Source: Ulva prolifera (Eukaryota; Chlorophyta; Ulvophyceae; Ulvales; Ulvaceae). Taken from it: 64,000 nt of DNA. Positions 34,621 through 47,754 of this stretch are shown one piece after another. The translations under genes and the position numbers were made by a program. The stretch spans positions 5,230,538 through 5,294,537 of the forward strand of contig CM041203.1 of the NCBI GenBank assembly GCA_023078555.1. Direction: 5' to 3'. How positions within the stretch are numbered: the stretch's first letter is position 1; each line of letters opens with the position of its first letter. The notes under the pieces are model-generated. The model was given only the letters and a program-made list of their open reading frames with translations. It had not been told where the DNA came from and did not search any database.

Positions 34621-35684
34621 CTCACACCTTGCACACGGGCACTGGCAGTATCAGTGCGGCATAGACAGCTTCATGCCCTTGCAATGTCTGCCGAACATGA
34701 CATTCTACCAGACAAAATTGGCTGTGGCAAAATCATGATGTAGCAAGGCTATGTAGCATGAAGTAAGCCTATGTAGCATGAAAACTAGCTGGAATCAAGA
34801 CACATATACTGGATGATCAGAACTGTTCTTCCCAAGGCATCACACATCTGGGTCTGCCCCGCAGGCCTCTACAGAATCCATCACTGAGCAGGCTACCAGC
34901 AATCAGCAGGCATGCTCCACTAGCATACTATCCCAACATAGGGGGTGCGACTGTGCAACGTGTGGCATTATCACGGTGTCTGTCCGACACTTGTCTCAGT
35001 CATGTGCCGGAGAGCTGTACTTCAATGCTGCTCTAATGATGTACAATGTAGGACAGCGTGGACGCGGTCATGTCGTCACAGCGCCATCTGAAACTGCGCT
35101 TTATACAAATGCGGCGTCCTGCTGCGCCAGTCATTCTATGCGAGCCCAAAAGCCCAGCCTGCACCTGCACAGTAGTCAACGTAGTGCACGTGTTTGGAAG
35201 ATATGCCCACACCGTACAGCTGAACAGTGAATGCCTTACACACGATGAAACATCGAAGCGGCGTGTGCAGGTCATATATACGTGTCGAGATGCTGGGTGC
35301 ATCAGGCAGGAGGTGCCGCCGCAACTGTACATGCCATTCCAAAACAATGGTGGCGGTCACGATATTAAATGGTTCTGCGATACAAAGTCAGCTCTAGCTC
35401 GCGCCTGCAACTCTGCAGGACATGCGGGCTGTGCGAATGCATCTGCAGCGACAATGGGTATCTCCTCAATGTTTGGGTGTAGCATAGGGCTGCAGCAATA
35501 ACAGAACTGAAAGATTTGGACCATCTGCTGCAGATTGCAGCTGAGGCCCCATGTCACGCAAGCTCAGACCGAGCACACAAACTGGAAGTCTCAGCTGCAA
35601 GCCACAACCTGGCCAGATCGGAAAGTGCAGTAACTTACCACGAAACGCGAATGGTCCAAAGCGTCACAGCAATCCACCGGCTGC

Positions 35685-35833
35685 TCATGACTGCGCTCCT
35701 TGATCCTGGGCAAGCCCACTACCTTCGAAGTTGAGGTGCGTCAGCTGGCCGCACCCACCGATCTCCGCCGGGAGGTGGCTGAGACTTTCGCACCACCTGA
35801 TGTCGAGGTGTGCCAGCTGGGCGCAGCAACTAA
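35685..35833 (-). pseudogene. Severed C-terminal coding segment of NLR2
   Basis: Two LRR units and a tail: SCCAQLAHLDIRWCESLSHL, then PAEIGGCGQLTHLNFEGSGL, then AQDQGAQS and TGA at 35685-35687. It joins in frame to NLR2 codon 1407 (42584-42586) once the CACTA element and one TAA are ignored: the split codon uses 35829-35831, and 144 bases (48 codons) remain before the stop. The ancestral protein would be about 1455 residues. Today it is cut off by the transposon at 35834. Confidence 0.9.
35831..35833. other. Left TAA target-site duplication of the CACTA element
   Basis: TAA directly outside CACTAGG; matched by TAA at 42583-42585 outside the right end. Confidence 0.85.
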
Positions 35834-35851
35834 CACTAGGAGAATGGTGAC
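35834..35851 (+). repeat. Left terminal inverted repeat of the CACTA element
   Basis: CACTAGGAGAATGGTGAC, identical to the reverse complement of 42565-42582. Confidence 0.93.
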
Positions 35852-36282
35852 GTGGTGGTGAGGAAGGTGCGAGGATGGTTTGAGGAAGAGTGGCGGAGGC
35901 CTAGCGGAACCCCGGGAACGGCGAAAGGACCGTTGGCGGAGCGCCCGGAAGGCAGCCCGGATTGTGGACGGAAGTTCCGCGAGCGTTCCGGACGGGGTGT
36001 TTCAACGGGCACTCCACGTGGGGGTTCCGCCGGAACGTTTCCGGAGTGATGCCGGAACGTGCGAAGGATCCGCAATGCTTCCAGAGGACTGTTTGAGGAA
36101 GAATGCTTAAAATTTCGGAATGGTTACGGATCCGATAACGTTCCGGCAGAGCCTTGCGGAAGCCTCCCGGAAGCCTGGAAGAACAGGATGGTTCGTGAGA
36201 GGTTAATCTCTGCCCGGATGTGCTGGAGACAGATTACGTAAGTGGTGAGGTCATCAAGGCCTTCTTTACATGCGTGCCACGT

Positions 36283-36350
36283 GTAGGTTGCCGTTGATTC
36301 GGATGCAACTCGGTCTCAATGTTTGTTCTCTCCCATTCACTCTATTGTAA
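36283..36350 (+). mobile_element. Truncated retro-insertion (TGTAA-tail family), copy 3
   Basis: A 68-bp insert ending CCCATTCACTCTATTGTAA lies between near-identical 14-bp repeats CATGCGTGCCACGT (36269-36282) and CATGTGTACCACGT (36351-36364). It is nested inside the CACTA element. Confidence 0.65.
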
Positions 36351-36722
36351 CATGTGTACCACGTTTTCGACAGAGAATCGCGATTAGTGCACAGGACATA
36401 CGGTCCTGCGGGAAAGGCAGTTTCGAGTGCATATACAAGCAGCATGTCATCAACTGTACACCGTGATTCCGGAACAAGACAGATTTATTGATGTGTTCAC
36501 ACGAGCTCGTAGGCAGGGGTGGTCATGGCTTGCATAGGCATATCATAGACATTGCTTACATTGATATCTCGTCACCTTGGGTGCCCTCATCATGTCCATA
36601 AGGAACGATGATACTACGATCACATGTAGTGCCACCTCTAACATGTCATATACTCCACTCATACATTTAATCACGATCACCGCATGTGTACAGTTTCTTT
36701 CCGAGCCCACGTTGGTATACAA

Positions 36723-36959
36723 CTAATCGACATACTTCTTCCGGGTAATCTTCAACGCGAGGCCAACCTTCTGGCTCCTCTTATGGGTGGGATGCAACGG
36801 AGATTCCGCTGTCCCCTCCGTTTTTAGTGCGCCAAGGATGAATCTCTTGAAGTACTCGTAGTCAGCCACGTACAGTCCGTCTTCTTGTGCCCACTGCGCG
36901 GCCGGCTTCATCGTGCCCTCGCCGTCAGCAGTCCTCGCTCCGAGTCTGGACAACTGCAT
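36723..36959 (-). CDS. Small ORF or terminal exon in the CACTA element, unknown function
   Basis: From ATG 36959 (or an acceptor ATGCAG ending at 36954) the frame gives 78 residues: LSRLGARTADGEG, AAQWAQEDGLYVADYEYFKR, FILGALKTEG and a basic tail KRSQKVGLALKITRKKYVD before a TAG. The composition is protein-like and the basic C-terminus suggests nucleic-acid binding. It may be the last exon of a transposon protein whose upstream exons were lost to the satellite. I do not recognise the family. Confidence 0.4.
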   Translation of the reverse strand: MQLSRLGARTADGEGTMKPAAQWAQEDGLYVADYEYFKRFILGALKTEGTAESPLHPTHKRSQKVGLALKITRKKYVD

Positions 36960-37079
36960 GGATAGGTTATGTGTCAGTGGCTTGCGCTCATTCACGCGCA
37001 CTGGTATGTTGTTGCCCAATGTGTTTGTTTTGCAGTAGCACAACGTCTACATCAGATGGGTCTGTCAGGGAATGTGGGG

Positions 37080-38185
37080 CGCGGCGCCCGAGAATGGTTG
37101 GTGGGCCACCAACCATTCGGGAAGTCATGCATGTAAGCATCCATGCACGGCGCGGCGCACAAGAATGGTTGGTGGGCCACCAACCATTCGGGCGGTCATG
37201 CATATGCATGACATATATCATGATCCAGGCTCCCCGGAATGGTTGGTGGGCCACCAACCATTCGGGCAGTCATGCATGTCACGATGCAGGCTCCCCAGAA
37301 TGGTTGGTGGGCCACCAACCATTCGGGAAGTCATGCATGTAAGCATCCATGCACGGCGCGGCGCACAAGAATGGTTGGTGGGCCACCGACCATTCGGGCG
37401 GTCATGCATATGCATGACATATATCATGATCCAGGCTCCCCGGAATGGTTGGTGGGCCACCAACCATTCGGGCAGTCATGCATGTCACGATGCAGGCTCC
37501 CCAGAATGGTTGGTGGGCCACCAACCATTCGGGAAGTCATGCATGTAAGCATCCATGCACGGCGCGGCGCACAAGAATGGTTGGTGGGCCACCAACCATT
37601 CGGGCGGTCATGCATATGCATGACATATATCATGATCCAGGCTCCCCGGAATGGTTGGTGGGCCGCCAACCATTCGGGCAGTCATGCATGTCACGATGCA
37701 GGCTCCCCAGAATGGTTGGTGGGCCACCAACCATTCGGGAAGTCATGCATGTAAGCATCCATGCACGGCGCGGCGCACAAGAATGGTTGGTGGGCCACCA
37801 ACCATTCGGGCAGTCATGCATATGCATGACATATGTCATGATCCGGCTCCCCGGAATGGTTGGTGGCCCACCAACCATTCGGGCAGTCATGCATGTCACG
37901 ATGCAGGCTCCCCAGAATGGTTGGTGGGCCACCAACCATTCGGGAAGTCATGCATGTAAGCATCCATGCACGGCGCGGCGCACAAGAATGGTTGGTGGGC
38001 CACCAACCATTCGGGCAGTCATGCATGTCATGATCCAGGCTCCCCGGAATGGTTGGTGGGGCACCAACCATTCCAGTAGTCATGCATGTGACGAACCATG
38101 CGCGGCGTGGCGACTAAGAATTTCAGTGTCGTTTTTCTCTCGTTCACTCTTTTGTAACTACGAATGGACGGTGCTCCACCATCCG
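37080..38185. repeat. Palindrome-bearing satellite, 206-bp higher-order unit
   Basis: Fifteen copies of a 27-bp inverted repeat (arms GAATGGTTGGTGG and CCACCAACCATTC around one G) sit at 37092, 37163, 37237, then again at +206 (37298, 37369, 37443), and so on to about 38075. Spacers within a unit differ (about 44, 47 and 34 bp) but repeat every 206 bp. A few copies carry single changes, such as CCACCGACC at about 37385 and CCGCCAACC at about 37665. The last, diverged copy (GAATGGACGGTGC ... CCACC) is split from the array by a retro-tail at 38122. Confidence 0.95.
38122..38156 (+). mobile_element. Truncated retro-insertion (TGTAA-tail family), copy 4
   Basis: A 35-bp insert ending CTCGTTCACTCTTTTGTA lies between ACTAAGAAT (38113-38121) and ACTACGAAT (38157-38165). 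It interrupts the satellite, where other units read ACAAGAATGG without a break, so the empty site is known from neighbouring copies. Confidence 0.7.
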
Positions 38186-40167
38186 CTCTCGCGGACTCTT
38201 GAAAACGAACGGTGCGGGACTGCCCGCTCTAGCAGGCATGCAGAAGAACACTAAACGAACTTACGATGGTGCAGATGTATTCCGCGTGCCTCTTGGGATA
38301 TGCAATGTGCATCAGCTATCAAGGCGAGACAGGACACCACGTGGAGGCACCACGTACGCAGCTAAATGATACATGTATACACTCGAAGGATTGCAACCCC
38401 AACACAACGCACTCAAACAAGGAACGCGCCGGATAATTCTCTAAGCCCTCACTTCTGTCGACATATTCCGGTCCTCTTAATCCTTTGGCTGCCTTGTCTT
38501 ACAGTTTTGATCCCATGCATGCTTATAGACGCCCTGCGGGTACTAACGAGGTCAAACTTGGACGCACGTGTGCACACACAAATGCGATGTTTGGGCGCCT
38601 GCTTGTTGCCACGAAGTAACTGTCGATGGCAGTTGTGCATGTAAACTTTGTTCGCCGAGATTTATGCAAGTCTCGCGAGAGTGTTCGGTACTGTCCAACC
38701 ATAGTCAATCTAGAACATACTCCATATGTTTGCTCTCCACAATGGAAGCACTTGGTATAGGATCGCACCACCTCCATGCCATGCGGTTTTGCTTGATGTC
38801 ACGATCCCATGGCCGGCTCGAAATAACTTCCACGTGAGTGTGTGTTCCTCAGGTAGGCTACGTAGGTATACCGGAAGATGCTGATACCCGTGACCTGCGA
38901 AAACACACCTGGTCAACAACCGATGGTGCACGCAAATGCCAGGCGCACCACAATGATCTCGATCGAGCAGCAGAGAAGCAAGCGTAGATAGGCTCCAAGT
39001 AACATTACTGCTTACGCGCACTCTAAGAATGTCAGTTTGTTTGAGACACGGAGTCGGACGGCAATCACCTCAAGCAGCTGCTCTGCAAGCAAGGTGAACG
39101 TGGTTCATGCGATCGGGCGCCATCGCACATCCGAAGCTACAACATATCCAAAGCTACAGCATACAGCTACAGCATATATGATATACGAAGTAGTTCTAAA
39201 CTGGTGGCAGGTGCCATCTCGAACAGAACAATGTGTGCGCCTCGACCATCGATATCGGCACATCAGCTGCGTCTTCGGCGCCTTCGCAAGGAAGTGATGT
39301 CCACGACAGCGCCGTCAGACATATACAAACGTCACACCTTGCAGCATACTTCAATTGAGCATGTCGGAAGTTGAGCAGCGGCGATGACGCCTGCGGCTGC
39401 TGCTTGCTAACAATTAGACGCCAGCCCGGGAGTGAAAGACCCGCCTACGATTCACACCACATTATACAATAATACCCACAGACAGAGATTGTAGAAGACT
39501 TCAGGCGCTTTGTTCAACCAGGTACGCCGCAATGATCATGTCGGTGCGCCCGCACACGCAGTACGGATGTCATGGCTTGCACTCCAACGCATTGAGACAG
39601 CACAACGAATTGATAATACATTTATGCTCACTGATGCAATGTTTAGGTTTTGACAGCTCACATATGGAGATCGCGCCTGGAATGGCGAGCGTTACCGCCA
39701 CACATCGCATGCACGCATGCATGCAAAAACAGCATCGCGGTGAGTGTGGCGTTAGTGGACCCAGCCATGCACGCAACCCAAACAGCCCCAGGCCACCATT
39801 ACACAGATCTCATGGTGCCTCCTGGCGCTAGCATGAACCCCGGATGATTGGCGACACCGAAAGCAGAGACACAACGGAAGTATGAGCCATACATATGTAC
39901 GTGGTAAAGTAATAAAATCGTTTTAGTGGTTCCGATGCAAGACAAGTCGGGCAAAAATGTAGTATATGCACCGCTGCTGCAGTACGTACCGTTGAACGTT
40001 GTACCAATGTGGGTGTGCATGCGTGTTTGTGCGGGTGGGCATCATGTGTCGCGTGGCCTCCCCCCTCTCAGATGGCAGAGGCGCATAGTATGGCTGTGAC
40101 GCAGCATGCTACAGCAGCAATGGCTCGGCAATGTATTGGGATGTCGGCAAAAGTGCGTCCTCTGCCC
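38186..40167. other. CACTA interior without recognisable genes
   Basis: About 2 kb of unique, AT-richer sequence. The frames are short, no transposase motif is seen, and no repeat links it to other parts of the window. Confidence 0.4.
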
Positions 40168-41395
40168 TCCCACGCAGTGCAGCGGGGTTGACAGTGGTGC
40201 TGCCCATCGTTGCCGTAGCACAGCGGCACCTGGTCCTTCTGTGCTGTTACCCCCTCTGCCCCCCCACGCAGTGCAGCGTGGTTGACAGTGGTGCTGCCCG
40301 TCGTTGCCGTAGCACAGCGGCACCTGGTCCTTTTGTGCTGTTACCCCCTCTGCCCCCCCACGCAGTGCAGCGTGGTTGACAGTGGTGCTGCCCATCGTTG
40401 CCGCAGCACAGTGGCACCTGGTGTTTCTGTGCTGTTACCCCCTCTGCCCCCCCACGCAGTGCAGCGGGGTTGACAGTGATGCTGCCCATCGTTGCCGCAG
40501 CACAGCGGCACCTGGTCCTTCTGTGCTGTTACCCCCTCTGCCCCCCCACGCAGTGCAGCGTGGTTGACAGTGGTGCTGCCCGTCGTTGCCGTAGCACAGC
40601 GGCACCTGGTCCTTTTGTGCTGTTACCCTCTCTGCCCCCCCACGCAGTGCAGCGTGGTTGACCGTGGTGCTGCCCATCGTTGCCGCAGCACAGTGGCACC
40701 TGGTGTTTCTGTGCTGTTATACCCTCCGCCCCCCCACGCAGTGCTGCGGGGATGACAGTGATGCTGCCCATCGTTGCCGCAGCACAGTGGCACCTGGTGT
40801 TTCTGTGCTGTTACCCCCTCTGCCCCCCCACGCAGTGCAGCGGGGTTGACAGTGGTGCTGCCCATCGCTGCCGCAGCACAGTGGCACTTGGTGTTTCTGT
40901 GCTGTTATACCCTCCGCCCCCCCACGCAGTGCTGCGGGGATGACAGAGATGCTGCCCATCGTTGCTGAATCACAGTGGCACTTGGTGTTTCTGTGCTGTT
41001 ATAATTACCCCTCCTGCCCTCTCACGCAGTGTAGCGGGGTTGACAGTGGTGCTGCCCATCGTTGCCGCAGCACAGTGGCACCTGGTGTTTCTGTGCTGTT
41101 ACCCCCTCTGCCCCCCCACGCAGTGCAGCGGGGTTGACAGTGGTGCTGCCCATCGTTGCCGCAGCACAGTGGCACCTGGTGTTTCTGTGCTGTTACCCCC
41201 TCTGCCCCCCCACGCAGTGCAGCGGGGTTGACAGTGGTGCTGCCCATCGCTGCCGCAGCACAGTGGCACTTGGTGTTTCTGTGCTGTTATACCCTCCGCC
41301 CCCCCACGCAGTGCTGCGGGGATGACAGAGATGCTGCCCATCGTTGCTGAATCACAGTGGCACTTGGTGTTTCTGTGTTGTTATGCCCTCTGCCC
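40168..41395. repeat. 94-bp minisatellite, about 13 copies
   Basis: The unit starts TTGACAGTGGTGCTGCCCAT and ends CCCCCCCACGCAGTGCAGCG. Unit starts fall at 40188, 40282, 40376, 40470, 40564, 40658, 40752, 40846, 40940, about 41037, 41131, 41225 and 41319. One unit near 41010 carries a 3-bp length change. Since 94 is not a multiple of 3, all frames are read in turn; the long open frames on both strands are by-products. Confidence 0.95.
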
Positions 41396-41816
41396 CCTTC
41401 ATGTCTGGGTGCTGCCACGCCAGGGTCAGGCTGACCATCGCCTTAAAGACAGGCCACAGCGCCCTCACCACCCAAGCCAGACATGTTATGCCACGCTATA
41501 CAAATGAATCGCAAGCATTATTCGTGCCACATGCTGTTAACCTTCAGCTAGCCTCCCTGCACGTCAGGACAGTACCAGAGAAATACAAAGAGAGTCGATA
41601 CAAATAAACTAGAAATGCATTATCATGAGACGATATCGACGCCGACGCCGCCGAGAGACTCCAGACGCTTATAATAGCTCATATGAATTGGCTTACATTG
41701 CTGTGGGAAGATGCTCCGTTGGTACTATACTCGCTCCAGAGATCGTTGATGGCGAGATGCAATGCTCGTGGGCTATCCATCGACACTGCAGTGGTGACTA
41801 GCGCATGCATTACTCG

Positions 41817-41995
41817 ACCCCGTAATGGTCGGTGAGGCACCGACCATTCCACGACGTTGCTGACTGGGCCGTAATGGTCGGTGAGGCACCGACCATTCCA
41901 CGATGTTGCTGACTGGGCACACTTGCATCGATTCAGACCGGAATGGACGGTGCCACACTGACCACTCAGCGACAGGAGCACGCCATTTGTCTCCT
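41817..41995. repeat. 54-bp tandem repeat with inverted-repeat core
   Basis: Two near-identical 54-bp units each hold AATGGTCGGTG-AGG-CACCGACCATT, followed by CCACGA(C/T)GTTGCTGACTGGG. A third, decayed core, GAATGGACGGTGCC, follows at about 41940. The core is a variant of the 27-bp palindrome of the satellite at 37.1-38.2 kb. Confidence 0.85.
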
Positions 41996-42127
41996 CTGAA
42001 CGCGGTTCATGCTTGACCACCTAAAGGAGAGTAGCACCAACTTGTCAGGCACGTCCTCGTCTTCCGTGGGCATCGGATATGCAGGCATGAGTGCTCAATC
42101 CTTTTCAATATCCTTTGGTGTACATGC

Positions 42128-42158
42128 ATGTATGTCTTCTCCGTTAACTCTTTTGTAA
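42128..42158 (+). mobile_element. Truncated retro-insertion (TGTAA-tail family), copy 5
   Basis: TATGTCTTCTCCGTTAACTC followed by TTTTGTAA matches the family tail. No clear target duplication could be assigned. Confidence 0.5.
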
Positions 42159-42215
42159 ACTTGTTCCAGCTCAAACTCTGAGCAGTCGGACTGCTGGACG
42201 TACATGGGCGCAGCT

Positions 42216-42266
42216 TCTTTGATGTTTGTCTTCTTCCATGTGCTCGTTTGTAATGTTTTTATTTGT
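42216..42266 (+). mobile_element. Truncated retro-insertion (TGTAA-tail family), copy 6
   Basis: Contains TTTGTCTTCTTCCATGTGC then TCGTTTGTAATG, between GCGCAGCT at 42208-42215 and again at 42267-42274. It has a longer T-rich tail after TGTAA than the other copies. Confidence 0.5.
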
Positions 42267-42386
42267 GCGCAGCTGCGTTCGCCTCAGTACGCAATGGATT
42301 TCCAGTGCTTTTCATCTGCGGAGACTGATTGGCCTGTCTCGCGCGATGGAAGAGCACACAATCATGTCAGCGCTGTTGCCGAGGAA

Positions 42387-42475
42387 GCCATAGGACATTC
42401 CGCAGCCACCAAGGAAGCCATAGGACATTCCGCTGCCACCAAGGAAGCCATAGGACATTCCGCCACGATCGTTCC
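42387..42475. repeat. Threefold 30-bp subterminal repeat of the CACTA element
   Basis: AGGAAGCCATAGGACATTCC followed by GCNGCCACCA occurs three times in tandem, 90-190 bp inside the right end. Position and GGAA/TTCC content fit a transposase-binding array. Confidence 0.85.
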
Positions 42476-42564
42476 TTGTGAAGCATACGGACGCGGGCGG
42501 AAGGTCAACAGCCTCGTAGGAATGTTCCTCTGTCAGCGGAACGCCTTCGGTTCCGCCCCGGAAT

Positions 42565-42582
42565 GTCACCATTCTCCTAGTG
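42565..42582 (-). repeat. Right terminal inverted repeat of the CACTA element
   Basis: Reverse complement of CACTAGGAGAATGGTGAC. It also encodes the last residues and stop codon of the NLR2 frame. TAA (42583-42585) follows as target duplication. Confidence 0.93.
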
Positions 42583-45500
42583 TAAGCTCTGTAGGAAGCA
42601 AGGCTAGGCTTGTGCACCAGCTGAGGTCGAGGTGTGTCAGCCAGGTGCAGTCACCGATCCTGTCCGGGAGGTGCGTGAGGCGTTCGCACTTGCTGAGGTC
42701 GAGGTGCGTCAGCTGGGCGCAGTCACCGATCCTCTGTGGGAGGTGCGCGAGGCGTTTGCACAGGTTGAGGTCGAGGCGCGCCAGCTGGGCGCAGTCACCA
42801 ATCTCCGCCGGGACGTGAGTGAGGTTCTGGCACCCACTGAGGTGGAAGTGCGTCAGCTGGGCGCAGCCACTGATCGTCTCCGGGAGGTGCGTGAGTTGTT
42901 CGCACTCTCTGAGGTTGAGGTTCACCAGCTGGGCGCACCCACCGATCCTCTCCGGGAGGTGCGTGAGCATTCCGCACCCGCTGAGGTCGAGGTGCTTCAG
43001 CTGGGCGCAGTCACCGATCCTGTCCGGGAGGTGCGTGAGGCGTTTGCACCCGCTCAGGTCGAGGTGCGTCAGCTGGGCGCAGTCACCGATCCTCTGTGGG
43101 AGGTGCGCGAGGCGTTTGCACAGGTTGAGGTCGAGGCGCGCCAGCTGGGCGCAGTCACCAATCTCCGCCGGGACGTGAGTGAGGTTCTGGCACCCACTGA
43201 GGTGGAAGTGCGTCAGCTGGGCGCAGCCACTGATCGTCTCCGGGAGGTGCGTGAGTTGTTCGCACTCTCTGAGGTTGAGGTTCACCAGCTGGGCGCACCC
43301 ACCGATCCTCTCCGGGAGGTGCGTGAGCATTCCGCACCCGCTGAGGTCGAGGTGCTTCAGCTGGGCGCAGTCACCGATCCTGTCCGGGAGGTGCGTGAGG
43401 CGTTTGCACCCGCTCAGGTCGAGGTGCGTCAGCTGGGCGCAGTCACCGATCCTCTGTGGGAGGTGCGCGAGGCGTTTGCACAGGTTGAGGTCGAGGCGCG
43501 CCAGCTGGGCGCAGTCACCAATCTCCGCCGGGACGTGAGTGAGGTTCTGGCACCCACTGAGGTGGAAGTGCGTCAGCTGGGCGCAGCCACTGATCGTCTC
43601 CGGGAGGTGCGTGAGTTGTTCGCACTCTCTGAGGTTGAGGTTCACCAGCTGGGCGCACCCTCCGATCCTCTCCGGGAGGTGCGTGAGCATTCCGCACCCG
43701 CTGAGGTCGAGGTGCTTCAGCTGGGCGCATTTAACGATCCTCTGTGGGAGGTGCATGAGGCGTTTGCACCCGCTCAGGTCGAGGTGCGCCAGCTGGGCGC
43801 AGTCACCGATCGTCTCCGGGAGGTGCGTGACTGCTCCGCACCCGATGAGGTCGAGTTGCGCCAGCTGGGCGCAGTCACCGATCCTTTCCGGGAGGTGAGT
43901 GAGGCTCTGGCACGCACGGAGGTTGAGGCGCGTCAGCGGGGTGCAGTCACAGATCGTCTCCGGGAGGTGCGTGAGCGCTCCGCACCCGACGAGGTGGAGG
44001 TGCGCCATCTGGGCGCAGTCACCGATCCTTTCCGGGAGGTGTGTGAGCGCTCCGCACCCGATGAGGAGGAGGCGCACCAGCTGGGCGCAGTCACCGATCC
44101 TTTTCGGGACGTGCGTGAGCGTTTTGCACATGCACAGGTTGAGGTGCGCCAGCTGGGCGCAGTCACCGATCGTCTCCGGGAGGTGCGTGAGCGCTCCGCA
44201 CCCGAGGAGGTCGAGGTGCGCCAGCTGGGCGCAGTCACCGATCCTTTCCGGGAGGTGCGTGAGCGCTCCGCACCCGAGGAGGTGGAGGTGCACCAGCTGG
44301 TCGCAGTCACCGATCCTCTCCGGGAGGTGCGTGAGCGCTCTGCACCCGCCTAGGTCGAGGTGCACCAGCTGGTCGCAGTCACCGATCCTCTCCGGGAGGT
44401 GCGTGAGCGCTCTGCACCCGCCTAGGTGGAGGTGCGCCAGCTGGGTGCATTCGCAGATTGAGTCTGGCAGGCCTTCCAGGTTCTTGCAGTCGCTGAGGCT
44501 GATGTGCCGCAGCATGCTGCAGCTACCAATCCTGTCTGGCAGCAGCACAAGATTAATGCAATCTTGAATAGCAAGGCAAGCCAGCTGGCTACAATCGCAG
44601 ATGCTTCCCGGAAACTCGGTGAGGTCGTCAGATGCCCGGAGCAAAAGACGTGTCAGCTGGCTGCATTGGCCGATGCTGTCTGGCAGACGCGTCACATGCG
44701 AGAGCGATACGTCTTCTAGTTGGCCCATGGAAAAAAGCGCATCGAGCACTGACGAAGCACCAGTGCAATCAATCAAGCGCAGATACTTCAGTCTTGGCCT
44801 GTGCCATGCGGACCGCTCCTGGAGCAGGCCGGTCACATCGACGTCAGTTACCGACAGATACCGCAGCCTGAGCATGCTTGGCCACCCCGCTTGGCTGTTC
44901 TCCGCAAGCGGGGATGCCACTGTACTGTCTACGTCAACATCGCCATTGTCAATGATGCATGCTCGCAGCTGGTCGGCAGCGGTGCAACCAGCTAGCCCCT
45001 GCCTCGGCCAGGAGGGCCCTTGCATGCTGATGTAGCGCACATCACCAATTTCAGCCTTTCTGCTGTCGTCATAAGTGCGCCGCGCCTTGGCCTGCCGTGC
45101 GCGGCTCCGCGCGATGGAGTGAAGAACGTCATGCATGTAGTACAGAGGGGTGCCCCGCACGTGCACGCGACTAATGCGCCGCCACTCCACTGACACGAGG
45201 CTCCGCTGCACGAGCTCATCAAGCTTGAACTTTGCTGCTTGCACGCTGTGTGGCGAGTGCAGGGGCGCGTGCGTAGCAAAGAGGTGCACAAGCTCCCCCT
45301 CCTCGACCCGTGCATCCTCCTGGAACGCAGCAAAGTCGATGAAGCACTCCTGCAGCGAAGGCGGAAGGGCCTCGACGCTCACAGCACATGCAGCAGAAGC
45401 AGCGTCTTCGAGTTTGATGCGGAGCTCGCGGAACTCTTTCAGGCTCCGTTCCCACCCATTCGCAGGACGCCGCTTGACAGCTTCACCGAGAACCTGAAGG

Positions 45501-46804
45501 GCAAGAGGGTTGCCGCCGCACTCCTTCAGCATGCCCTGGAGCAATGACTCCTCTTGCGGATTCAACTCGGGGCGCTGGCTGCCTGGATCAAAGGCGTGGT
45601 GCTCAAATAGCTGTTGTGCATGTTCGTCCCTGAGAGGCGTCGGCTTCACAACCTCAAGCTCGTCCATGGCACGGGCTGGCTTCGCGTTGGGGTTGTCGGA
45701 CAGCGTGCTGCGCTCACGCGTTGTGATGATAAGCCTGCTGCCAGCACGCCTGCTCTGGGGGTCCGTCGCAAAGTTCAGCGACGCCACGACCGCATGCTTT
45801 TCATCGAGCCATACATCATCCAGCACTAGAAGCACAGGTTGGTTCCGCTCGCGATGGAGCCGATGCGCAAGGTCATTAAGCCCGTCCTGCGCGTTCTTGA
45901 ATGGTGGTGCATCGTGCGGAAACAGCTGGGCAAAAGCAGTTCGCAGCAGAGTCAGTGCCCAGTCTGGTCCCGACTGCGGTGCTTCCTTGCCAACGGTCAG
46001 CCACACCGCATTGTCAGGGAACCGTGCCTTGGCGCGCTCAAACACTGCCCGGGCGATGGTGGTTTTCCCGATGCCGGCCATGCCCACGATGCCGATGTGG
46101 CGGGTGGTTGACAAAAGCTTGTCAACGTGAGGCACAAGGTCATCGCAGTGCTGGAAGACATGCTCCGGCGGGACTGGAGGGCTGCTGTTGCCAGTGGTCA
46201 CAGGACCACACGCCTCACTGCATGTTGGCGGAGTGTACTGGCTTTGATTGATGACGCGAGGCACCCCTTGAGCTTGCGATTGTTGAATCTCATTCTCGGC
46301 CGCCTGCAGCCGTGCAAAATTTTCAAAGCACACAAAGTGCTGTAGCGTCTTCCTGAGATGGCGGGGTGTGTCCCTGTGCATGGCCCTGCGAAACAGCTGC
46401 TGTCCGGCAACAAATGCCTGCTTCATCTGCATCTTTAGGCCGCCTCTAGGCTCAGCGGCCAGGCATCTCTCTCTTCTCATCAACCGCCACTGCTCAAACT
46501 CCAGCACCGCGTCTTCAAGAGCATCACAAAGTCGAGTATAGTCGTCCCTCCACGCGCTGAAGCCGGGATGATCTGTCACAGAGTCCAGGAGGCTTGCAGT
46601 CTGTTGCAAACTATCTGCGGCCAGCATGTCCTCAAGCTCCTGGAGCTCCTGCGGATACTCCCCGGCGGCGTGGAACTCTTTCACCGCCCACTTGAGGCCC
46701 TCGATGACACACCATGCTGCGCCGCTACCAACAGTGGGCCAGACGGCTTTGTTCAGCGCGTGATCAGCGGCAGTGGACAGCACCACGGCTGCCATGACCT
46801 GCAT
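42566..46804 (-). CDS. NB-ARC/LRR (NLR-type) protein 2, C-terminus replaced by transposon
   Basis: An uninterrupted 1412-codon frame. Residues 1-200 are a helical N-terminal region of unassigned family. NB-ARC follows: P-loop GMAGIGKTT at 241-249, kinase-2 LLVLDD at 325-330, SRLIITTR at 356-363, GGNPLAL at 430-436, MHD at 557-559. About 30 plant-type 24-residue LRRs (CAQLxHLDLSGCxxLTHLPxRIGD) run from about 610 to the end. Such proteins act as nucleotide-dependent switches in plant immunity; the role in an alga is inferred. No intron is visible. The last five residues TLGEW and the TGA (42566-42568) are read from the CACTA terminal repeat; the original 48-residue end lies at 35685-35831. The start is supported by the paralogue at 3589, which shares MQVM. 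A truncated protein may still fold, since only about two of 32 LRRs are lost. Confidence 0.93.
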   Translation of the reverse strand: MQVMAAVVLSTAADHALNKAVWPTVGSGAAWCVIEGLKWAVKEFHAAGEYPQELQELEDMLAADSLQQTASLLDSVTDHPGFSAWRDDYTRLCDALEDAVLEFEQWRLMRRERCLAAEPRGGLKMQMKQAFVAGQQLFRRAMHRDTPRHLRKTLQHFVCFENFARLQAAENEIQQSQAQGVPRVINQSQYTPPTCSEACGPVTTGNSSPPVPPEHVFQHCDDLVPHVDKLLSTTRHIGIVGMAGIGKTTIARAVFERAKARFPDNAVWLTVGKEAPQSGPDWALTLLRTAFAQLFPHDAPPFKNAQDGLNDLAHRLHRERNQPVLLVLDDVWLDEKHAVVASLNFATDPQSRRAGSRLIITTRERSTLSDNPNAKPARAMDELEVVKPTPLRDEHAQQLFEHHAFDPGSQRPELNPQEESLLQGMLKECGGNPLALQVLGEAVKRRPANGWERSLKEFRELRIKLEDAASAACAVSVEALPPSLQECFIDFAAFQEDARVEEGELVHLFATHAPLHSPHSVQAAKFKLDELVQRSLVSVEWRRISRVHVRGTPLYYMHDVLHSIARSRARQAKARRTYDDSRKAEIGDVRYISMQGPSWPRQGLAGCTAADQLRACIIDNGDVDVDSTVASPLAENSQAGWPSMLRLRYLSVTDVDVTGLLQERSAWHRPRLKYLRLIDCTGASSVLDALFSMGQLEDVSLSHVTRLPDSIGQCSQLTRLLLRASDDLTEFPGSICDCSQLACLAIQDCINLVLLPDRIGSCSMLRHISLSDCKNLEGLPDSICECTQLAHLHLGGCRALTHLPERIGDCDQLVHLDLGGCRALTHLPERIGDCDQLVHLHLLGCGALTHLPERIGDCAQLAHLDLLGCGALTHLPETIGDCAQLAHLNLCMCKTLTHVPKRIGDCAQLVRLLLIGCGALTHLPERIGDCAQMAHLHLVGCGALTHLPETICDCTPLTRLNLRACQSLTHLPERIGDCAQLAQLDLIGCGAVTHLPETIGDCAQLAHLDLSGCKRLMHLPQRIVKCAQLKHLDLSGCGMLTHLPERIGGCAQLVNLNLRECEQLTHLPETISGCAQLTHFHLSGCQNLTHVPAEIGDCAQLARLDLNLCKRLAHLPQRIGDCAQLTHLDLSGCKRLTHLPDRIGDCAQLKHLDLSGCGMLTHLPERIGGCAQLVNLNLRECEQLTHLPETISGCAQLTHFHLSGCQNLTHVPAEIGDCAQLARLDLNLCKRLAHLPQRIGDCAQLTHLDLSGCKRLTHLPDRIGDCAQLKHLDLSGCGMLTHLPERIGGCAQLVNLNLRECEQLTHLPETISGCAQLTHFHLSGCQNLTHVPAEIGDCAQLARLDLNLCKRLAHLPQRIGDCAQLTHLDLSKCERLTHLPDRIGDCTWLTHLDLSWCTSLALLPTELTLGEW
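42650..43729 (-). repeat. Near-identical 360-bp block (five LRRs) repeated about three times
   Basis: 43021-43380 and 43381-43729 differ by about one base (43651), and 42698-43020 matches the equivalent bases 360 further on. Each block codes five LRRs ending in turn PERIGGC, PETISGC, PAEIGDC, PQRIGDC and PDRIGDC. The high identity points to very recent amplification by unequal exchange. Confidence 0.93.
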
Positions 46805-47754
46805 GCGCTCTCAGCGTCGGACCATGCGGCGCTGCAACATCGATGATAACGCCAGCATGACCGGCATCCGCGCCGCACCGACGACCGCTGATTGACACCA
46901 TTGTGAAATTCCACTACAGTCACTGACAGAGACAACAACAGCAGTCTGCGAGCAACTACATCCTGATACAATGTTGGATGCCACTGCAAGAATTAGCTAC
47001 ACAGACAAGACCTTGACATTCACGCACCGGTGGCTGTGCTACTTCGGTAACGGTGGCTGTGGCGTTGGCAGTCTAGATCTGTCAGTGGTGGCAGAGGCTG
47101 GTCTGGTGCAGCCGAGGGAGTCTCTCGCTCTCGGGTGGACGATGCAATTCTCCGCGGCCGCGCCTGCACAGGCGGAGCGGGGTCAGGCGCATTCGCGGCC
47201 AGCATGCATCCGCCATCATGATGCCCGGTCTGCTATTTCCGCGGTCGCTGCCCGACATCATGATGATACCTTGACCGTGGCCTCAATGCAGTAGGGCTCC
47301 CCACAAACACAAGCGTTGACTACACCTTGCAATGGGTACGTTATACTGCGTGACGCCCTATCGATGCGCTGGTGATCGCATGCCCATAACCGGATGTTCC
47401 CGAGAAAACCCGGCCGGACGGATGTGAACTTGCACTCTAGCAACATCACAGGAGGTTACACCGGTACTTTAATTTGACACAACTTGAACGTAGCGCAGCA
47501 TATGCAAATCCATCCATTGGCAAACACGACTGCACACCGAGCTATATGACCAAGCAGTAATGGCTTGAGGTGCTGAATTGCAATGCGCAGCAGCTGTCTG
47601 ATGGCCGCTGCGCATTGTACACATGCAGTCATGCTGTTCAGATCCACTTGAATATCAAACCTCACAGAACCAGCGTGACCACCGCTGGCCACGTCCGCTA
47701 ATGGCACATATCGAGGCAGACGTGGATGCAGCAGCACAGGTACACAGCCGTCAG
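46805..47754. other. 5' flank of NLR2, paralogous to 3590-4870
   Basis: No gene. Similar to the NLR1 flank in blocks, without the 72-bp palindrome. The promoter of NLR2 should lie here, but I cannot assign elements. Confidence 0.45.

Follow-up and report, generated by a model that had tools for sequence, protein, structure and literature searches.

A CACTA-type element in the leucine-rich repeat region of an NB-ARC-LRR gene of Ulva prolifera and the predicted clipped receptor

The closest described parallels to the locus reported here, a CACTA-type transposon inside a gene for a predicted nucleotide-binding leucine-rich repeat (NLR) receptor of the green alga Ulva prolifera, come from Arabidopsis, soybean and other chlorophytes. 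The DM10 risk allele of Arabidopsis encodes a truncated TIR-NLR that is without three of eight leucine-rich repeats (LRRs) and the post-LRR region, and it causes hybrid necrosis (PMC7826191). In Arabidopsis RPP7, the transposable element COPIA-R7 contains polyadenylation sites and bears on full-length expression (PMC8116057). Tgmt* of soybean, a CACTA element of the En/Spm type, is 20.5 kb long, with nearly identical 13-bp terminal inverted repeats and an ATA duplication (PMC2613891), and DUF4218 and Peptidase_C48 are described as accompanying Transposase_21 in plant CACTA elements (PMC8978399). The NLRs reported from the chlorophytes Chromochloris, Botryococcus and Ulva have an NB-ARC domain followed by LRRs (PMC8891106, PMC7145615).

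The window analyzed here is a stretch of 64,000 bases (contig C8, 5230538-5294537) from a genome that we searched at 88.9 Mb in 44 contigs. Exons of the RuBisCO small subunit on the large contigs C1 and C9 assign this genome to the green lineage, probably to the chlorophytes, and the four contig ends inspected had no recognizable telomere type. We hold it very probable that a non-autonomous CACTA-type element recently inserted into one of a tandem pair of NB-ARC-LRR genes in this window, with a clipped receptor as the predicted product. The event is ordinary in kind and unusually clean in its evidence, and we found no report of it in the open-licence literature. It resembles DM10 in that an NLR has been shortened at its LRR end with little other decay, recently so according to the DM10 authors. 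DM10 differs in being attributed to a premature stop codon (the available part of the report mentions no transposon), in its larger LRR loss and in its known phenotype (PMC7826191). RPP7 likewise has a transposable element inside an NLR gene, but COPIA-R7 is described as a retrotransposon in an intron rather than an exon, and the end of the protein, as described there, has no terminal-repeat sequence (PMC8116057). With Tgmt* the element shares CACTA ends, a 3-bp duplication, asymmetric subterminal regions and the occurrence of very long, putatively autonomous copies alongside shorter derivatives. Unlike those of Tgmt*, the terminal repeats here are an exact 18 bp, the family's transposase is not recognized by the Transposase_21 model, and the host is a green-lineage alga; Tgmt* lies in an intron, whereas the window copy lies in coding sequence.

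The element and the gene it interrupts

The features of the locus, in window coordinates, are as follows.

35834-42582, no strand: non-autonomous CACTA-type element, 6749 bp, recognized by exact terminal inverted repeats, target-site duplication (TSD), repeated copies and the lack of a long open reading frame (ORF)
35834-35851, plus strand: left terminal inverted repeat, 18 bp
42565-42582, minus strand: right terminal inverted repeat, 18 bp, coding L-G-E-W-stop in the receptor frame
35831-35833, no strand: left copy of the TSD, TAA
42583-42585, no strand: right copy of the TSD, TAA
42566-46804, minus strand: truncated NB-ARC-LRR gene as now read, ATG to TGA, 1412 codons
35685-35831, minus strand: native C-terminal coding sequence cut off by the element, 48 codons (one base of the first comes from the TSD) and the native stop, recognized by frame, LRR register and homology to the neighboring gene
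34784-35684, minus strand: native 3' flank, matching that of the neighboring gene at 80% identity
1-3595, minus strand: 5' part of the intact tandem paralog, a 1414-codon frame that extends 646 bp beyond the left edge of the window
37083-38094, plus strand: tandem array within the element, 206-bp unit
40159-41397, plus strand: tandem array within the element, 94-bp unit, 13 copies

The element starts with CACTAGGAGAATGGTGAC at 35834 and finishes with its exact reverse complement at 42582; the first mismatch is at base 19, and past base 18 the left and right ends differ, making the subterminal regions asymmetric. TAA stands on either side. A preliminary description of this DNA had proposed inverted ends that match exactly over 18 bp, flanked by a duplicated TAA, and the junctions establish both. 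The longest stop-to-stop ORF in the element is 274 amino acids, mostly within a tandem array, and because no ORF of transposase size is present we call the 6749-bp element a non-autonomous derivative.

The interrupted gene has a minus-strand frame (42566-46810) of 1414 codons between stops, or 1412 counted from the first ATG, in agreement with the earlier claim of a 1412-codon frame free of decay. Pfam identifies an NB-ARC domain (PF00931, E=1.4e-24, 87.2 bits against a cut-off of 23.5) and several LRR families (LRR_8, E=2e-35), and a pattern count gives 29 regular 24-residue repeats in the present frame. In the N-terminal 233 residues, counted from the ATG, Pfam finds no match above cut-off, the TIR, coiled-coil (CC) and RPW8 signaling domains having been sought. 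Relatives of solved structure include Roq1 over the LRRs and At5g66900 and MLA13 over the NB-ARC domain, and the best-scoring structures are LRR receptor kinases that cover the LRRs alone. The NB-ARC domain and C-terminal LRRs make the gene immune-receptor-like, with a predicted role in immunity.

On the far side of the element the same frame resumes for 48 codons to a TGA at 35685-35687 with the LRR period kept across the join, just as had been proposed. When the flanks are joined with a single TAA they read ...LPTEL-SCCAQLAHLDIRWCESLSHLPAEIGGCGQLTHLNFEGSGLAQDQGAQS-stop, one continuous frame of 1457 codons between stops, with the LRR register kept. A tandem paralog 39 kb away (C8:5229891-5234132, window -646 to 3595) is uninterrupted, is 70% identical over 1399 residues and has the C-terminus LTHLNFEGCGFAHDQGAQS-stop. 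The joined-flank DNA aligns with the paralog through the junction (1185 columns, 79% identity, 20 gap columns), and from the stop onward, stop codon included, 904 bases of the two 3' regions align at 80%. Because the paralog shares the C-terminus, the 3' flank and the junction-spanning alignment, the 48 severed codons are the gene's own end, and the continuity of the gene before insertion is established. The intact paralog can, by homology, be taken as the unoccupied site. Terminal repeats, duplication, domains and the alignment through the junction together uphold the earlier statement that a CACTA-type element cut an NB-ARC-LRR gene.

Age, copies and classification of the element

Dating relied on three unique segments, since BLAST with the whole element was swamped by the tandem arrays. 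The alignment for private substitutions had 4424 ungapped columns, with nine copies in two segments and seven in the third, from which S48 and XL064 were absent; S45, S46, S53, S54 and the 15.1-kb E15d were left out as too diverged or rearranged. The window copy has 2 private substitutions in these columns and the other copies have 2 to 15. Of the relatives compared with it, the closest lies on the same contig at a distance of about 243 kb (L063); 5 mismatches and 22 gap columns separate the two copies in the three segments. A 1001-base internal piece has at least 44 matches genome-wide, at least 24 of them (itself included) at 98% or better across 950 or more of the 1001 bases. Synonymous divergence (dS) between the receptor gene and its paralog, by a simple counting method, is 0.33 in the NB-ARC region, 0.29 at the N-terminus, 0.22 in the first LRRs and 0.20 in the very short 48-codon tail, with ratios of nonsynonymous to synonymous divergence (dN/dS) of 0.33, 0.77, 0.80 and 0.84, respectively. 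Since 2 private substitutions in 4424 columns compare with a dS of 0.20-0.33, the insertion is far younger than the tandem duplication. An insertion so young leaves an intact frame that says nothing about function or tolerance. The earlier suggestion that the absence of decay marks the event as recent or tolerated therefore stands as to recency, on the strength of the substitutions, and lack of decay remains uninformative on function.

The terminal repeat, allowing up to 2 mismatches, occurs at 263 places in the genome (127 forward and 136 reverse), and its reversed control pattern at 1 (forward, with 0 reverse). A generic CACTA-end pattern, no commoner than its own control, was uninformative. 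Among the first 100 places listed, 74 form 37 plus/minus pairs less than 40 kb apart, and among these listed matches 14 pairs are 6.0-8.8 kb long, 2 are 10.6-10.7 kb and 21 are 15.1-37.1 kb; pairing was by order alone, and the longest pairs may include nested or unrelated ends. We looked for copies with ends other than those at 35834 and 42582, and the other copies have the same ends. TSDs were compared in 22 elements, namely the window copy and 21 others with both ends known, 16 of them retrieved whole and 5 as end loci only. An abutting 3-bp TSD is present in 18, two fit a 4-bp duplication (GGGC, CCAC), and in the other two nothing abuts, but the 3 bp recur once one additional base is skipped. 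When flanks were re-paired at random, a mean of 1.02 of the 22 matched, and at most 5. Because the triplets vary among copies (GGC, GTT, ATG, AGT, CCC and more), TAA at the window copy does not represent a target rule.

Three long elements examined whole (16.9-18.4 kb) share their ends with the window element at 82-89%, over 575-923 bases on the left and 300-320 on the right. DUF4218 matches occur in all three (E 0.0015-0.0044, below the curated cut-off), and the one long-element protein tested has a weak Peptidase_C48 match (E=0.27). Membership in the CACTA superfamily is supported by the ends, the TSDs and the asymmetric subterminal regions, with sub-threshold evidence as to a TNP2-type transposase. 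The 17-18-kb elements with common ends are probably the transposase source for the window copy.

Three observations weigh against this account. The genome search gave no Transposase_21 match above cut-off, the sole weak one scoring 18.9 bits (E=0.0325); 4 of the 22 copies have no plain abutting 3-bp TSD; and there is no allelic empty site among the 78 receptor matches (33 of 111 candidates scored), the best of which, after the gene itself, is 75% identical. Members of the PIF/Harbinger superfamily prefer TWA targets. The TAA duplication and the missing Transposase_21 match could accordingly be read as signs of this or another superfamily with a 3-bp TSD. We consider such an assignment very unlikely, given that the ends begin with CACTA, that the other copies are flanked by unrelated triplets and that the DUF4218 and Peptidase_C48 hints, although sub-threshold, match the domain set described for CACTA elements (PMC8978399). 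Receptor-family matches are also common enough, at 78, for a chance neighboring LRR fragment or an assembly chimera to have brought together two parts that were never one gene. The exact TSD and repeat-to-repeat junctions, the frame and LRR register kept across the join, and the match of both C-terminus and 3' flank to the intact neighbor make this extremely improbable. On the CACTA account, the non-autonomous element was mobilized by transposase made elsewhere, the probable source being the 17-18-kb elements with the same ends. It recently entered the last but one of the complete LRR repeats in an NB-ARC-LRR gene that was intact and one of a tandem pair, and TAA was duplicated.

The new protein end and the fate of the receptor

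The present frame ends T-L-G-E-W-stop. The preliminary description had assigned this ending wholly to the transposon; L-G-E-W-stop does come from the right terminal repeat, which in this sense supplies the predicted protein end, but the T is a hybrid codon, with A from the host TSD and CA from the element. The missing part comprises one complete LRR repeat and five residues from the end of the preceding one, together with the half repeat and tail at the C-terminus. The earlier estimate was of about two LRRs lost from a total of 32, where our pattern counts 29 regular repeats in the present frame. With 48 residues lost and 5 gained, the product is predicted to be 43 residues shorter.

A frame entering either terminal repeat stops after 1 codon in phase 0 or 5 codons in phase 1; entry in phase 2 gives a stop after 9 codons at the left end of the window element or 90 at the right. 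The receptor gene enters in phase 1, and the predicted TLGEW ending is a by-product of the terminal repeat. As a rule for the family, insertion into a coding frame in phase 1 would end the protein with xLGEW, and this ending is probably not restricted to the receptor.

Transcription of the gene without splicing across the element would yield a receptor that is without its last 48 residues and ends in T-L-G-E-W. Such a receptor could be dead, active or over-active, any of the three. Plain loss of function, with transcripts into the 6.7-kb element degraded or made inefficiently, has in our estimate a little less than an even chance. It would follow readily from the 6.7 kb of element that separate the frame from its native 3' end, and an insertion this young gives the intact frame no value as evidence of function. 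Against it, only 48 codons are lost, the new stop codon ends at element base 17, and truncated plant receptors can be active, as the DM10 risk allele illustrates (PMC7826191). A comparison of polyadenylation motifs in the element and in the native flank gave nothing decisive. The uninterrupted sister gene in the same genome allows the effect of the 48-residue C-terminal loss to be compared.

The element might also be spliced from the mRNA, using two sites within its terminal repeats.

42568-42569, minus strand: GT in the terminal repeat, candidate splice donor, overlapping the new stop by one base (5.06 bits on a scoring matrix)
35836-35837, minus strand: AG in the far terminal repeat, preceded by a run rich in pyrimidines, candidate acceptor; another AG straddles the TSD edge at 35830-35831

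In the receptor sense the repeats would be cut as CACTAGGAGAATG^GTGAC ... CACCATTCTCCTAG^TG. With the first AG, the footprint is by construction 18 bases (13+2 of terminal repeat and the 3-bp TSD), and the frame is therefore always restored; the predicted product, L-TLGECV-SCCAQL, is full length plus six residues. Within the 50 bases inspected at the junction, 30 before it and 20 after, no GT other than the donor occurs. The 37 bases inspected at the far end contain two AGs, and with either of them the product stays in frame and retains the native C-terminus. The exact inverted ends provide identical sites in either orientation. In maize, insertions of the CACTA element dSpm are spliced out of exons, a precedent that did not turn up in the literature we searched. 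We nevertheless regard splicing of the element as very unlikely: the donor is moderate (8.3% of the window's 3935 plus-strand GTs score as high on that matrix), the intron would span 6734 bases, the dinucleotides GT and AG occur often, and one footprint in three would be a multiple of three by chance. A broader notion, for which we see little prospect, is that the terminal repeats act as a portable intron, with donor and acceptor inside them leaving an 18-base in-frame scar whatever the phase of insertion; one of the three phases would meet a stop in the terminal-repeat part of that scar. If true, the receptor gene would make two proteins, one clipped and ending in TLGEW, the other full length with six extra residues between LRRs, and the family would directly exemplify a DNA transposon equipped with signals for its own in-frame removal.

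Related sites elsewhere in the genome

Thirty junction flanks other than the receptor gene's were surveyed. The idea that the family targets NLRs was dropped, as one flank of the 30 (L017) has NLR coding; there, a 16.9-kb copy (L017/L039, C1:4754021-4772729) starts about 0.9 kb past the end of another NLR's LRR frame. We also rejected the idea that the receptor's kind of ending is unique, because other long frames run into element copies, the longest being 499 codons (L016, in a repeat-rich flank), 419 (L024), 181 (L034) and 174 (L025). Five sites were read beyond the element. At an 18.4-kb copy (L024/L025, C1:10269245-10287642), a plus-strand frame in phase 1 runs for 419 codons before the element and resumes for 119 after it, and its plus side has no Pfam match. 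The opposite strand is open as well (174 codons before and 300 after, phase 2), which leaves the coding strand unsettled. At an 18.1-kb copy (L034/L035, C2:3718496-3736605), a phase-1 frame of 181 codons resumes for 102 beyond and has a sub-threshold match to the Pif1 helicase 2B domain (E=0.0038). The remaining three sites have short frames of 65-74 codons before and 19-32 after. That two interrupted frames share phase 1 with the receptor is too few and too unsure to mean anything.

Several copies of the family show peculiarities of their own. In the four elements without a plain abutting TSD (L045, L048, L053 and L055/L056), a single additional base may be taken to separate the plus-strand right end from the 3-bp duplication, and it never falls on the other side; for L045 and L048, a plain 4-bp duplication fits equally. 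Two terminal-repeat sites (L021, C1:9447810, and L022, C1:9491374) have 1500 bp of identical flank, and one was probably copied by segmental duplication, not by transposition. The 15.1-kb copy L055 (C2:10747540-10757500) holds a nested 1049-codon ORF that, by its motifs, resembles a copia retrotransposon.

Algal NLRs have been little studied, and this genome combines clustered NLR genes, several with long open frames, with a very young transposon family. In having an NB-ARC domain followed by LRRs, the host gene is like the green-algal NLRs of Chromochloris, Botryococcus and Ulva. We count 33 NB-ARC matches here, many of them clustered, compared with one NBS-LRR (nucleotide-binding site-LRR) protein reported for Ulva (PMC8891106, PMC7145615). 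All 33 are above the family cut-off, some are fragments, and they lie on contigs C4 (11), C6 (11), C1 (6), C8 (2), C31 (2) and C3 (1). None of ten other ORFs in the window has a Pfam match at E 0.01. Tandem Repeats Finder identifies, in the LRR region of the receptor gene (42614-44449), a 360-bp super-unit of five repeats present about 5 times at 91% match, a sign of in-frame LRR expansion, presumably through unequal crossing-over. Receptor matches at C4:7463506-7476614 and C4:7498848-7511956 recur at an unvarying distance of 35,342 bases, suggesting that a segment with an NLR cluster was recently duplicated in tandem. Matches with identical scores also occur on two contigs (C1:4818797-4822195 and C6:33925-37323) and could be caused either by dispersed duplication or by an assembly haplotig.

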